Notes under the pieces: model-generated
Database searches by the model: none
What the model was told of the DNA's origin: nothing
Seen by the model: only the letters and a program-made list of their open reading frames with translations
From: an uncultured Acetobacteraceae bacterium
Lineage (GTDB): Bacteria; Pseudomonadota; Alphaproteobacteria; Acetobacterales; Acetobacteraceae
Direction of reading: 5' to 3'
Assembly (NCBI GenBank): GCA_903877125.1
Contig: CAIRCM010000003.1
Coordinates: 1 to 53,143, forward strand
Length of the DNA stretch: 53,143 nt
Translations under genes and position numbers: made by a program
Part shown: positions 14,614-18,961 of the stretch, one piece after another
How positions within the stretch are numbered: the stretch's first letter is position 1
Layout of the letters: every line of letters starts with the position of its first letter

Positions 14614-15045
14614 TCAGCCCGGTTCGCCGGACTGCCACGGGTCGATCACCGGAATGCCAATCGCGATAAACGGCGCGGTATCCCTCGTCGCGACCGAAAA
14701 GCCTCGGACCCCGGCAATGGCCGCGATCTGCCCATCGGCAACGCCGATCCCATGACCGGCGGCGCGCGCCCGGGCAACCAGGACGGCGAACAACCGGGCG
14801 GCCGGCTCATCGAAGCCGAGGATTCGCCGCACGCCAAAACTTGCTATGACCTCGGATATCCGCGCCTCGAGCCGCGACCGACGCTTCCCGAGCGGCAGAA
14901 GCGCTACGCCGAGCAGCAGTTCGGCGATGTTCACGGTCGTCAGATACAGCGTCTCGGTCCGCTGCCGGTCCAGCCAAGCCGCCACCGCTTGGTGACCGTC
15001 CCGCCGCATGGGTTCGTACAGCACGTTGGTATCGAGAACGATCAT
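14614..15045 (-). CDS. VapC-type PIN-domain ribonuclease toxin
   Basis: 143 residues, full-length PIN domain. Acidic residues for Mg-dependent RNA cleavage are in place: Asp5 (VLDTNVL), Glu42 (NIAELL), Asp104 (GVADGQIAA) and Asp122 (ATRDTAPF). It cleaves RNA when not held by its antitoxin. The gene starts inside the end of the antitoxin gene (4-base ATGA overlap), the standard vapBC arrangement. In contrast to the vapBC remnant at 7.6-8.2 kb, nothing is broken here. Confidence 0.92.
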   Translation of the reverse strand: MIVLDTNVLYEPMRRDGHQAVAAWLDRQRTETLYLTTVNIAELLLGVALLPLGKRRSRLEARISEVIASFGVRRILGFDEPAARLFAVLVARARAAGHGIGVADGQIAAIAGVRGFSVATRDTAPFIAIGIPVIDPWQSGEPG

Positions 15046-15281
15046 TCGAACGTGGCAGGTTCAGGCTCCGTCCTGTCGCGGACGACATCCAGTTCGACGC
15101 CCCCGAAATCGCGACCGATGGCGGCGAGCATCGACCCAAGGCCACGCTGCTTCGCGGGATTGACCGCGTCATCCAGAATGACCCGAATCTCGGCCTCGAC
15201 GCTGCGACCGTGCGCCGCCGCACGCATGCGCAGGGCTTTGTGGGTTTCGTCGGACAGGTTTCGGACGTTGAGCGCGGCCAT
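15042..15281 (-). CDS. VapB/FitA-type ribbon-helix-helix antitoxin
   Basis: 79 residues. The N-terminal RHH DNA-binding part is MAALNVRNLSDETHKALRM, followed by AAAHGRSVEAEIRVILDDAV, which matches FitA/VapB proteins; the C-terminal 30 residues should wrap the toxin. It neutralises the downstream toxin and, as in the family, probably represses its own operon. Upstream, two direct repeats GATGTCA spaced 20 bp apart are candidate operator half-sites. Confidence 0.9.
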   Translation of the reverse strand: MAALNVRNLSDETHKALRMRAAAHGRSVEAEIRVILDDAVNPAKQRGLGSMLAAIGRDFGGVELDVVRDRTEPEPATFE

Positions 15282-15405: not shown

Positions 15406-16275
15406 CTACCCCACCACAATCCGTATCGGCCCCGCCGCGTCCGTCACCGTCAGCGGAATAAACCCCGCTTTGTCCCCGTCCGTCTGTGCCGGCACCGCCG
15501 TGTTGCCGGGGAACTCCACCACCCCGGCCCGCACATGCCGCACCCCTGGCGCGCGCCCCAGCCGGTGCAGCGGCAGCGCCGCGCCATACAGCAGGGTGAT
15601 CCCCGGCCCCCCACGCTCGAACAGCACGACGGAAAATCCCGGCTCCCCAGGCCTGGCATCCGGCGCCAATCGAAAATTACCGCCGTAAAGGCACCCTTTG
15701 CTGACGATCACGCTTGCCGCCTGCACATCCTGCCCATCGAGCCGGACGGCGATTTTCGCGTAATCGTATTGCGGCAACTGCCGCAGCGTCTGGACCACGT
15801 ACGCCCCCCGCCCCAGCGCGCGCTTCAACCGCAGCGGCAGCGTGTGCACGATATGCGCGTCGAACCCGACGCCCAGCATCTGCACGAACAGCCGCGACAG
15901 CGCCCCGTTGCGCGCCACCCCCGGCCAGATCGTCTGTGTCCGCCCGAACGCCAAGGCCCCGGCCACCGCCTTCGGCGCGAACGGCAGCCCCAGCTCATGC
16001 GCCAGCACGTTCGCGGTTCCAAGCGGAATCACCCCCAGAACGGTTTCGCTTCCGATCAGCCCGTTGGCGACTTCCGCGATCGTGCCATCGCCGCCGGCCG
16101 CGACCACCAGCCGTTCCCCCCGCGAAGCCGCCTCCCGCGCGAGTTCCTCGGCGTGCCCCGCATGGTTGGTTTCCATGAGATCGAGCCGCACGCCATTGGC
16201 GACGAGCACGTCGAGCACGCGCCACAGCAACGCCGCGCGCCGACGCCCGGCGGTGGGATTGAAGACGATCAGCAT
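15406..16275 (-). CDS. Diacylglycerol kinase family lipid kinase
   Basis: 289 residues. ATP-dependent phosphorylation of diacylglycerol or a related lipid at the inner membrane face. It carries the DAGK catalytic fold: nucleotide loop NPTAGRRR (6-13), GGDGTIAEVANGL (61-73, with the catalytic-region GGDGT) and PLGTANVLAHELGLP (84-98). The C-terminal beta domain contains GCLYGGNFRLAPDA and ends normally. Soluble YegS/BmrU-type members, unlike DgkA, have this architecture. The start at 16275 faces the plcP-like gene; a Pho-box-like array on this strand lies 72-100 bp upstream. In context it would recycle diacylglycerol released by the neighbouring phospholipase back to phosphatidate. Confidence 0.9.
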   Translation of the reverse strand: MLIVFNPTAGRRRAALLWRVLDVLVANGVRLDLMETNHAGHAEELAREAASRGERLVVAAGGDGTIAEVANGLIGSETVLGVIPLGTANVLAHELGLPFAPKAVAGALAFGRTQTIWPGVARNGALSRLFVQMLGVGFDAHIVHTLPLRLKRALGRGAYVVQTLRQLPQYDYAKIAVRLDGQDVQAASVIVSKGCLYGGNFRLAPDARPGEPGFSVVLFERGGPGITLLYGAALPLHRLGRAPGVRHVRAGVVEFPGNTAVPAQTDGDKAGFIPLTVTDAAGPIRIVVG

Positions 16276-16346
16276 GACGGTGCCTCGGAGAGCTTACGAA
16301 TCGGACGTTTCCTCCCTGTCAAAACGCGGCTTTTGCCCCGGATTTC

Positions 16347-16375
16347 GTGACAGATACGCGTCAGATTCATGACCG
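16347..16375 (-). promoter_or_regulatory. Tandem Pho-box-like array between dagK-like and plcP-like genes
   Basis: On the minus strand three 7-base units CGGTCAT, CTGACGC and CTGTCAC follow each other with exactly 4 bases between (11-bp period). This is the geometry of PhoB sites (CTGTCAT-N4-CTGTCAC). Each adjacent pair matches about 14 of 18 consensus positions by my hand count. The array points toward the diacylglycerol kinase gene and lies 94-122 bp from the plcP-like start, so it could serve both directions. Confidence 0.6.
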
Positions 16376-16468
16376 CTCAATAATATTCACGCCGCGACGG
16401 AAATGTCCGCACCGTAATCCAACCTTCATTTTGTTCAGACGGATTCGGGACTATTTCAATGCCCTCGC

Positions 16469-17287
16469 ATGAACGCCATTCACAAATCGCCCTCCGGGCA
16501 CGCCTATCGCTGCGTATTCATCTCCGATACGCATCTTGGGACCCGTGGTTGCCGCGGTGACTTCCTGGTGGATTTTCTGCGCCAGACGTCCTGCGACCAA
16601 CTCTATCTGGTCGGCGACATCATCGACGGATGGCGCCTGCGGAAATCCTGGTACTGGGATGAAAGCCACGATGAGGTGCTGCGGCAGATTTTGCTGAAAG
16701 CCCGCAACGGGACCGACGTCACCTACATCCCTGGCAACCATGATGAGATGTTCCGCGCCTGGCTGCCGATGGGCCTGGAAATCGCGAACATCAAGCTGCG
16801 CGCCGAGGCAACCCACGTCACCGCGGCCGGCCTGCGCCTGCTGGTGACCCATGGCGACGCTTTCGACAGCGTCGTCCGGTATGCCAAATTCCTCGCCGTG
16901 CTCGGTGACAGCGCCTACACGTTCGCCCTGGTGACCAACCGCTGGTTCAACGCCATTCGGCGTCAGTTCGGCTACCCCTACTGGTCGCTGTCCGCCTGGC
17001 TGAAACGCCAGGTCAAGGGCGCGGTCAAGGCGATCGATCGTTTCGAAGCCGCGCTTGCCAACGAAGCCCGCCGCCGCGGCTTCGACGGCGTGGTCTGCGG
17101 CCACATCCATCATGCGGAAATGCGCGAGGTCAATGGCGTGTTGTACCTGAACGACGGCGACTGGGTCGAAAGCTGCACTGCCCTGGTCGAACATCACGAC
17201 GGCCGCCTGGAACTGATAGACTGGGCCGAACTGAACCGCCTTTCATTCTTCGAACCGACCACCACCCGGGTTCCGGCCGCTGCCTGA
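16469..17287 (+). CDS. plcP: PlcP-like metallophosphoesterase (phospholipase C of lipid remodelling; LpxH-related)
   Basis: 272 residues with the complete two-metal phosphoesterase set: SDTHLG (Asp20, His22), GDIIDGW (Asp50), GNHDE (Asn90, His91), VTHGD, and CGHIHHAEM (His212, His214). General annotation would be UDP-2,3-diacylglucosamine hydrolase-like, but the sequence and the adjacent glycosyltransferase match the PlcP group known from Sinorhizobium and marine bacteria. PlcP cleaves phosphatidylcholine or phosphatidylethanolamine to diacylglycerol under phosphate limitation. True LpxH activity in lipid A synthesis is the alternative. No signal peptide, so it acts at the cytoplasmic membrane face. 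No clear Shine-Dalgarno; the ATG was chosen for alignment with the first motif. 37 bp precede the next gene. Confidence 0.82.
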   Translation: MNAIHKSPSGHAYRCVFISDTHLGTRGCRGDFLVDFLRQTSCDQLYLVGDIIDGWRLRKSWYWDESHDEVLRQILLKARNGTDVTYIPGNHDEMFRAWLPMGLEIANIKLRAEATHVTAAGLRLLVTHGDAFDSVVRYAKFLAVLGDSAYTFALVTNRWFNAIRRQFGYPYWSLSAWLKRQVKGAVKAIDRFEAALANEARRRGFDGVVCGHIHHAEMREVNGVLYLNDGDWVESCTALVEHHDGRLELIDWAELNRLSFFEPTTTRVPAAA

Positions 17288-17324
17288 CATAGTCCCGCAT
17301 CACGCAATCGCCGGCCTCGACGAT

Positions 17325-18380
17325 ATGTTGCCGCCCGCGCCCTCCCACCGGATCCTGATCATTTCGGACGCCTGGCAACCCCAGGTGAACGGGGTGGTAC
17401 GCACTCTCACCACCCTCGTCGGCGAATTGAAGGACATGGGGCATGAGGTCGACGTGATCGGCCCCAACCGCTTCCGCACCATCCCCTGCCCGACCTATCC
17501 CGATATCGCGCTGTCGCTGCTGCCCGGTCGCCGCCTGATCCGCATGATCGAGGCGTTTCGCCCCGACGCCCTCCACATCGCCACCGAAGGCCCGCTGGGT
17601 CTCGCTGCCCGTCGGTGGGCACGCCGCACCGGCTTCGCCTTCACCACCGCATTCCATACCCGCTTCGCCGAATACGTGAAGGCGCGGACCGGCATCCCCG
17701 TGCGGCCGATCTATGCCTGGATGCGCCGCTTTCACGGCGCCGGCGCCGGCACGATGGTCGCCACCGCCTCCCTGCGCGACGAACTCGCCCAACGTGGCTT
17801 TCGCAACATCCGCTCCTGGTCCCGCGGCGTCGATCTCGCACTGTTCAAACCCGAACCGCGCGAGGATTTCGGCCTTCCCCGCCCGATCTTCATCCATGTC
17901 GGCCGGATCGCGGTGGAGAAGAACATCGCCGCGTTCCTCGACCTCGATCTGCCCGGATCGAAAGTCGTCGTCGGCGGTGGCCCGATGCTGGCGAAATTCC
18001 AGCGCGATTACAAAGATGTTCATTTCACAGGGCCGAAGCACGGCGAAGCCCTGGCGCGCGCCTATGCCGGCGCCGACGTCTTCGTCTTTCCGTCCTTGAC
18101 CGACACCTTCGGGCTGGTCATCCTCGAATCCCTGGCTTGCGGCACACCCGTCGCGGCCTACCCAGTGACGGGGCCGAAAGACGTCCTCGCGGGCGCCGAC
18201 GGGTTGATCGGGGCGGTGGATACGGATTTACGTTCGGCGGCGCTCAAGGCGCTGCACGCAGACCGGCAGGCTTGCCGGCGGCATGCCGAAACCTATTCCT
18301 GGCGCGCCTGCGCCGAGACATTTCTTTCGCATCTGGTCCCCCTTATGGCGGGCCAAGAAGGCATTGTGGGGGATCCATGA
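17325..18380 (+). CDS. agt: GT4 glycosyltransferase, Agt-like diacylglycerol glycosyltransferase
   Basis: 351 residues, GT-B fold of family GT4. The N-terminal acceptor domain starts ILIISDAWQPQVNGVVRTL; the C-terminal nucleotide-sugar domain has FIHVGRIAVEKNI and the E-x7-E region FPSLTDTFGLVILESLACG (about 256-274). The family also includes mannosyltransferases, but pairing with plcP is characteristic of Agt enzymes, which add glucose or glucuronate to diacylglycerol and make phosphorus-free membrane lipids. The sugar donor cannot be read. The stop overlaps the methyltransferase ATG by 4 bases, so the three genes form one operon. Confidence 0.82.
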   Translation: MLPPAPSHRILIISDAWQPQVNGVVRTLTTLVGELKDMGHEVDVIGPNRFRTIPCPTYPDIALSLLPGRRLIRMIEAFRPDALHIATEGPLGLAARRWARRTGFAFTTAFHTRFAEYVKARTGIPVRPIYAWMRRFHGAGAGTMVATASLRDELAQRGFRNIRSWSRGVDLALFKPEPREDFGLPRPIFIHVGRIAVEKNIAAFLDLDLPGSKVVVGGGPMLAKFQRDYKDVHFTGPKHGEALARAYAGADVFVFPSLTDTFGLVILESLACGTPVAAYPVTGPKDVLAGADGLIGAVDTDLRSAALKALHADRQACRRHAETYSWRACAETFLSHLVPLMAGQEGIVGDP

Positions 18381-18961
18381 CAGGCACTTTTATCGATCGC
18401 GCCGCCCCGAACGGCGTACCCTTGTTCCTCAGCCGCTGGCTGGCGCACCCCCTCCGCATGGGTTCCGTTGTCCCCTCCTCGAAGACCCTATGCCGCCACA
18501 TGGCCCGCCGTGCCTGGCCCGAGGATGACGGCGTGGTGCTCGAACTCGGCGCCGGCACCGGCGTGATCTCCAGGGCATTCCTCGAAGCCGGGCTGCCGCC
18601 GGAACGGCTGGTGACGCTGGAAATCGACCCCGATCTGGCCAACCATCTGCGCGGCACGCTGCGCGGGGTGGAGGTGCTGGAATGCGACGCCCGCAAGCTG
18701 ACCGAGCACCTGCCGGAACGGTTCAAGGGCCGCATTTCGTCGGTTGTTTGTGGCATTCCGTTGGTGCTGCTGCCGCTGGAGGAACAGCGCCGCTTCGTCG
18801 CCGCCATGGATGCCGTCGCCCCCGGTCGCGGCTTCCGCCTCTTCACCTACTGCATCACCTCGCCTTTGCCCGAGAAGAAGCTCGGCCTTAAGGGCACGCG
18901 GGAAGTCTGGACCCCGATGAACCTGCCCCCCGCCAGCGTTTGGCGCTACATGCCGGTGTGA
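18377..18961 (+). CDS. PmtA-like phospholipid N-methyltransferase family protein
   Basis: 194 residues, class I SAM methyltransferase related to rRNA adenine dimethylases. The N-terminus FLSRWLAHPLRMGSVVPSSK is the membrane-interacting hallmark of Sinorhizobium-type PmtA; SAM-binding VLELGAGTGVISRAF lies near 54-68. PmtA methylates phosphatidylethanolamine toward phosphatidylcholine; related enzymes methylate ornithine lipids. Translational coupling to the Agt-like gene (ATGA overlap) suggests a role in the same membrane-lipid programme, either restoring phosphatidylcholine or methylating a substitute lipid. Substrate is not determinable from sequence. Confidence 0.78.
   Translation: MTGTFIDRAAPNGVPLFLSRWLAHPLRMGSVVPSSKTLCRHMARRAWPEDDGVVLELGAGTGVISRAFLEAGLPPERLVTLEIDPDLANHLRGTLRGVEVLECDARKLTEHLPERFKGRISSVVCGIPLVLLPLEEQRRFVAAMDAVAPGRGFRLFTYCITSPLPEKKLGLKGTREVWTPMNLPPASVWRYMPV

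Follow-up and report, generated by a model that had tools for sequence, protein, structure and literature searches.

Lipid remodelling by the metallophosphoesterase PlcP and the glycosyltransferase Agt is an established pathway, as are its Pho boxes (PMC9239053, PMC4796936, PMC3972451, PMC8528852, PMC5082522, PMC11828411, PMC10331486, PMC7864038, PMC6445935, PMC7828035, PMC12493201, cited jointly and as far as their searchable text goes). In Methylosinus trichosporium OB3b, plcP lies immediately upstream of agt, and a strain deleted for plcP-agt no longer makes the glycolipid GADG (PMC9239053). Among the six plcP arrangement types given in the text on marine heterotrophs, type 2 combines plcP, agt and predicted Pho boxes (PMC4796936). 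We analyzed a cassette of this kind in an uncultured Acetobacteraceae bacterium. The window, by which we mean the whole stretch of 53,143 nucleotides under analysis (GenBank CAIRCM010000003.1, positions 1 to 53,143), lies on contig C3 of a 5.15 Mb draft genome (G000). Here too, a GT4 agt directly follows plcP, and a predicted Pho box precedes plcP. A lipid kinase gene diverges from plcP, and a PmtA-like methyltransferase gene follows agt. The locus is likely to be a PhoB-controlled lipid-remodelling unit of the PlcP-Agt type, with a divergent and probably co-induced kinase, in a Rhodopila-like Acetobacteraceae genome.

Gene calls and searches with Pfam and NCBIfam profiles agree with the gene order given in a preliminary description of this DNA. 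The kinase gene (15406-16275, minus strand) encodes a dagK-like protein of 289 amino acids from the YegS/Rv2252/BmrU family (DAGK_cat 99.1 bits, YegS_C 49.5 bits). On the plus strand, the PlcP-like protein (16469-17287, 272 amino acids) belongs to the Metallophos (calcineurin-like phosphoesterase) families, the GT4 (17325-18380, 351 amino acids) matches Glyco_transf_4 and Glyco_trans_1_4, and a PmtA-like class I methyltransferase (18377-18961, 194 amino acids) comes last. The GT4 reaches the cut-off of no NCBIfam model, and its Agt name is taken from its position after plcP. These three genes had been called one coupled operon. The term is correct for the GT4/methyltransferase pair, in which the stop codon of the first gene and the start codon of the second share the sequence ATGA; plcP ends 37 bp before the GT4.

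The region between the kinase and plcP had been described as holding one Pho array. The half-sites of that array are real, but they belong to one of two opposite-facing elements and point at the kinase, not at plcP. The element that faces plcP was overlooked earlier; it reads CCGTAATCCAACCTTCAT and lies at 16412-16429 on the plus strand. This putative Pho box, of the pstS type, is built from tandem CTGTCAT-like half-sites at 11 bp, a build that it has in common with pstS. The pstS gene of the same genome is preceded by CTGTCATCCAACCTTCAC and lies in a pst operon (L081) whose best family matches are PstS, PstC, PstA, PstB and PhoU. The phoB gene adjoins this operon, beside phoU and the pst genes, and scores 326.4 bits against a curated cut-off of 296.2. 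A pattern composed after inspection of both the plcP and pstS sites, GTMATNNAAYCTTCAY, has two matches in the 5.15 Mb genome, the plcP box and the pstS box, and its reversed control has none. The box is also present at every one of the 15 pstS genes that could be located in 20 fetched pst stretches, with 11-13 of 13 fixed letters and a start 83-102 bases before the pstS start as placed by tblastn. A matrix built from those 15 sites, this genome's own pstS among them, gives its top score in the window to 16412-16429 (20.1; the next is 11.4). In an alignment of 28 related intergenic regions, the plcP-side block has the consensus GCGTCATCGAATCTTCACT on the plus strand, and a conserved TAT element follows it (16452-16457, plus strand; 1.6-1.8 bits at columns 16452-16454) as a candidate plcP -10.

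Elsewhere in the genome, another pstS-like box, CTGTCATCGTATGATCAT, occurs at L243:892-909 (G000:C97; pstS matrix 15.5). It sits between the end of a PNPase-like open reading frame and a nitropropane-dioxygenase-like open reading frame, both named from sequence reading.

The array that faces the kinase comprises three minus-strand half-sites at 16347-16375, CGGTCAT, CTGACGC and CTGTCAC, separated by GAAT and GTAT. They keep the exact 11-bp period originally reported and carry 16 of 21 letters of the E. coli-type CTGTCAT consensus. When the 193-base intergenic region was dinucleotide-shuffled 2000 times, no minus-strand score was as high. A weaker fourth unit carries the array to 16386, giving four PhoB-type half-sites at 16347-16386 and 20 of 28 letters, again with 0/2000 shuffles as good. 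Both pair tests in the window on the E. coli consensus alone gave p of only about 0.04 (best pair 0.036). Between the array edge and the kinase ATG are 71 bp, close to the 72 bp that separate the genome's own pstS box from its gene.

Both elements recur in relatives. We compared 79 intergenic regions, namely the window and 78 of the best 80 of 323 kinase relatives; these 80 loci were picked by kinase similarity, not by plcP, and in the 78, plcP adjoins the kinase. At p<=0.05, the four-unit test was passed by 67/79 regions on the kinase strand and 19/79 on the plcP strand, the three-unit test by 60/79 and 22/79, and the two-unit test by 44/79 and 10/79. With the pstS matrix, 49/79 regions scored above the 99% shuffle threshold for the plcP strand and 34/79 for the kinase strand (27/79 and 32/79, respectively, when the linker was left out). 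Three lines together carry the case for predicted Pho sites: the array scored as three or four units, the resemblance to pstS and this conservation. The gene families, the pstS-like box and the shuffle tests of the array thus support the earlier proposal of PhoB-type sites at a PlcP-Agt-type cassette.

Several observations weigh against control of both sides by PhoB. The window array fails the pstS matrix (8.1 against a 99% shuffle threshold of 10.8, no-linker form) and is significant only as an array. The plcP box is separated from the conserved TAT by 22 bp, and the pstS spacing reads as 10. A second genome pattern, TGTCAYNNWAHNNTCAY, has three matches, pstS and two places without evident phosphate genes, and misses the plcP box, which reads GTAAT. 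Reading of the sequence revealed no clear kinase-side -10 at a pstS-like distance. In many relatives, though not in the window, the array elements also fit an inverted repeat, TGTCA-N6-TGACA, which could therefore be the target of a different regulator. On that view the kinase would be a housekeeping neighbour without phosphate control, as the failed matrix test, the existence of the kinase subfamily apart from plcP and the weakness of the boxes beyond near relatives would also suggest. We consider this somewhat unlikely, because boxes on the kinase strand pass the pstS matrix and the four-unit test in 34 and 67 of the 79 regions, respectively.

PhoB might also act on the two genes with opposite sign, activating plcP-agt and, by way of the minus-strand array, repressing the kinase; diacylglycerol (DAG) would then be kept from phosphatidate until phosphate returns. 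Such a one-way gate fits the row of four tandem half-sites that separates kinase and plcP, the fact that the most pstS-like box faces plcP only, and the lack of a clear -10 on the kinase side. However, the array stands about as far from the kinase start as the pstS box does from its own gene, and DagK is enriched together with PlcP among the lipid-remodelling proteins of Pseudomonas putida BIRD-1 at phosphate depletion (PMC5082522). In the available text of that report, the proteins absent from the phoBR mutant include PlcP and OlsAB and not DagK, which counts against co-induction; its discussion calls PlcP, OlsAB and DagK all PHO-dependent. On balance, the gate is unlikely.

Co-induction of the kinase with plcP, the reading that we prefer, would work as follows. 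At low phosphate, PhoB would bind the 16412-16429 box and switch on plcP, agt and the methyltransferase gene. PlcP would free DAG from phospholipids, Agt would glycosylate it, and the PmtA-like enzyme would N-methylate an amino-headgroup lipid, either phosphatidylethanolamine or ornithine lipid. The array at 16347-16386 would bring the kinase under PhoB as well, most likely for co-induction, and the co-induced kinase could turn DAG not used by Agt into phosphatidate. Underneath this model lie the gene order, the gene families, two conserved control elements and the resemblance between the plcP and pstS boxes. The 'reversible switch' between DAG and phosphatidate that had been proposed is something we only infer.

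The model requires that the phosphoesterase be PlcP and not the UDP-diacylglucosamine hydrolase LpxH, which would make this a cluster for lipid A. The best NCBIfam matches of the protein are in fact LpxH models, but at 39.1 and 33.3 bits they fall far under the respective cut-offs of 134 and 190.35. The metal-site motifs of PlcP are conserved, with GNHD in place of the GNRD motif that LpxH carries, and a pstS-type box precedes the gene. LpxI is encoded in the genome at 163 bits over its cut-off, so LpxH is not needed. With LpxI present and the LpxH scores this low, we rejected LpxH, and the lipid A reading is very improbable.

The kinase had been taken for an extension of the cassette made in this genome. 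Our comparisons contradict this, as the kinase is the usual partner of plcP. In 78 of the best 80 kinase loci, plcP is divergent and 157-420 bp upstream of the kinase; the other two are L177, whose contig extends only 188 bp on that side, and L163, with 6000 bp that lack plcP. Both plcP and agt diverge from the kinase in 74 of the 80, and the further loci that miss agt (L115, L142, L161 and L178) have no more than 1085 bp of contig upstream. A cultured relative, Rhodopila globiformis DSM 161, is among the carriers of kinase, plcP and agt (locus L114). Among 30 related cassette loci, several of which share genomes with the 80, a kinase was seen in 28 and not in L026 and L029, the contig of L029 reaching about 1 kb on that side. 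Of 115 genomes sampled across the class, 40 had a PlcP match and 41 a kinase match. By comparison of coordinates by eye, the kinase diverges from plcP in 20 of the 40 plcP-bearing genomes, our own included. Fetching the 19 other pairs recovered both genes each time, 174-681 bp apart. Because the two are divergent in 78/80 nearest loci and 20/40 class genomes, the kinase is an old and common partner of plcP. It is not an obligate one. Eleven fetched kinases of the same type lie away from plcP, with no plcP or agt within their 5.6-8 kb stretches, and this counts against a PhoB-controlled unit of the two genes, as does the weakness of boxes across the class: the best boxes of the 19 pairs reached p<=0.05 on the plus strand in 3 and on the minus strand in 7. 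We make no claim of class-wide Pho boxes between plcP and the kinase.

The kinase passes the TIGR00147 model of the YegS/Rv2252/BmrU family (120.5 bits, cut-off 118.65), and it shares the GGDGT motif with all of the best 80 kinase loci. Its third motif is GTANVLA, with N-V where the aligned Staphylococcus aureus DgkB has N-D. In DgkB this residue, Asp97, coordinates Mg2+ via water (PMC7864038, from the accessible text). The window kinase has Val in its place and is in this respect not of the DgkB type, a point against a role in DAG phosphorylation. Val is kept at this position in 80 of the best 80 loci and in 19/19 class loci, and so is a trait of the subfamily rather than a sign of decay; in kinases away from plcP it is found in 9 of 11, with Ala and Ile in the remaining pair. 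Since the third motif lacks the Asp97 equivalent, we infer DAG as the substrate rather than read it from the motifs. Ceramide would be an alternative, by analogy with what is reported in the text on Caulobacter CpgB (PMC10331486).

The methyltransferase is the variable part of the cassette. It scores 98.8 bits with the PmtA model NF045881 (cut-off 250) and 78.7 bits with the OlsG model NF041658 (cut-off 350). A predicted structure built from 8 sequences (mean predicted local distance difference test score, pLDDT, 69.8) is closest to Agrobacterium tumefaciens PmtA, 9ko3, at an E value of 3.4e-11; the next different proteins, other methyltransferases, follow at 1.7e-6 and weaker. The enzyme is thus predicted to have a PmtA fold. 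Agrobacterium PmtA (PDB 9ko3) and planctomycete OlsG are class I methyltransferases of the same kind, but the cassette enzyme stays below both NCBIfam cut-offs. We searched 59 genomes for the gene, 33 of them genus genomes with our own included. It is beside agt in 9/33 (G000, G001, G003, G007, G009, G011, G026, G028 and G031) and on another contig in 14/33 (in two pieces in G004); at comparable similarity it was not found in 10/33, several of which are incomplete. Within the best 80 kinase loci, it accompanies the cassette in 7. In a protein tree of PlcP and Agt from L044 and the 29 of the 30 related loci that hold both proteins, with G007 left out, seven genomes that carry the methyltransferase next to agt group in a single clade, to which G031 is added with a placement support of 0.202. 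The gene is a clade-limited addition. The kinase-plus-methyltransferase arrangement had been offered as the possible novelty of this locus. In the comparative search, the kinase half of that suggestion fell away, and the methyltransferase half stands as variation within a clade.

Copies of the methyltransferase gene dispersed to other contigs have a setting of their own. Among the 14 larger dispersed stretches, six (L244-L246, L248, L252 and L253) have the gene divergent from what we take to be a PleD-like response regulator, recognised by reading and not by family search. The copies inspected there have two ATGAC-like half-sites 11 bp apart, one of them over the methyltransferase start codon (ATGAC...). 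A box at p<=0.01 within 300 bases on either strand was scored at 9/15 dispersed and 0/9 adjacent copies, a count that is inflated because the half-site overlaps the start codon in the copies beside the PleD-like gene and 'upstream' includes some N-terminal coding bases; L190 and L192 (plus strand, score 16.4) are two dispersed copies without that overlap. We place no reliance on Pho boxes at the dispersed genes. A second, distant member of the PmtA/OlsG family is encoded at L241 (G000:C32:3117-3668; 78.6 bits to the PmtA model).

As to the lipid that is methylated, no match to PF11899, which we take to be the BtaA family of the betaine lipid route, was found in the genome, making it unlikely that the methyltransferase is a BtaB partner. 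The pst-bearing contig has one gene of Acetyltransf_5 (PF13444), presumably the family that includes OlsB. With BtaA not found and this gene present, the favoured candidate substrates are phosphatidylethanolamine and ornithine lipid. The Acetyltransf_5 gene is no proof of ornithine lipid, because the E. coli control genome matches the family too, and its 3.3-kb locus has no pstS-matrix site above 3.6.

Two further features of the locus deserve mention. The block CGAATCG at 16297-16303, near the kinase start, contains GANTC and is among the best-conserved intergenic blocks in the alignment of 28 related regions. Directly downstream of the kinase, at 14614-15281 on the minus strand, are a FitA-like ribbon-helix-helix gene and a PIN/VapC-like gene. 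The PIN/VapC-like protein has no match at E<=1e-10 among 32 related cassette loci, so the pair looks private to the locus of this genome.

It is tempting to speculate that plcP and the divergent kinase make up a DAG valve that is governed by PhoB and ancient in Alphaproteobacteria, a tentative idea that may well prove wrong. In such a valve, plcP would release DAG from phospholipid and the divergent kinase of the GTANVLA subfamily would phosphorylate DAG or another lipid. A wandering methyltransferase, possibly phosphate-linked elsewhere too, would have been recruited to the DAG arm in one Rhodopila-like clade.

Compared with the described systems, the pathway itself is known, the kinase is not a novelty of this genome, and the methyltransferase is clade-level variation. 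The main texts on OB3b (PMC9239053) and on the marine arrangement types (PMC4796936), figures aside, contain the words 'kinase' and 'methyltransferase' 0 times. BIRD-1 has PlcP and DagK in common with our locus, but the BIRD-1 text (PMC5082522) does not describe a divergent gene pair or state the DagK family. We found no description of a conserved divergent kinase-plcP pair in open-licence literature text, figures not covered. As far as text searches reach, the published PlcP-Agt scheme does not include a kinase control point, and the PlcP-Agt text examined does not describe what limits DAG build-up or how phospholipids are rebuilt when phosphate returns. The kinase that stands back-to-back with plcP in 20/40 class genomes, in near relatives with phosphate-type sites on both sides, is a concrete candidate for a DAG-control role next to that scheme, and the sign of PhoB control on it is the point of most interest.

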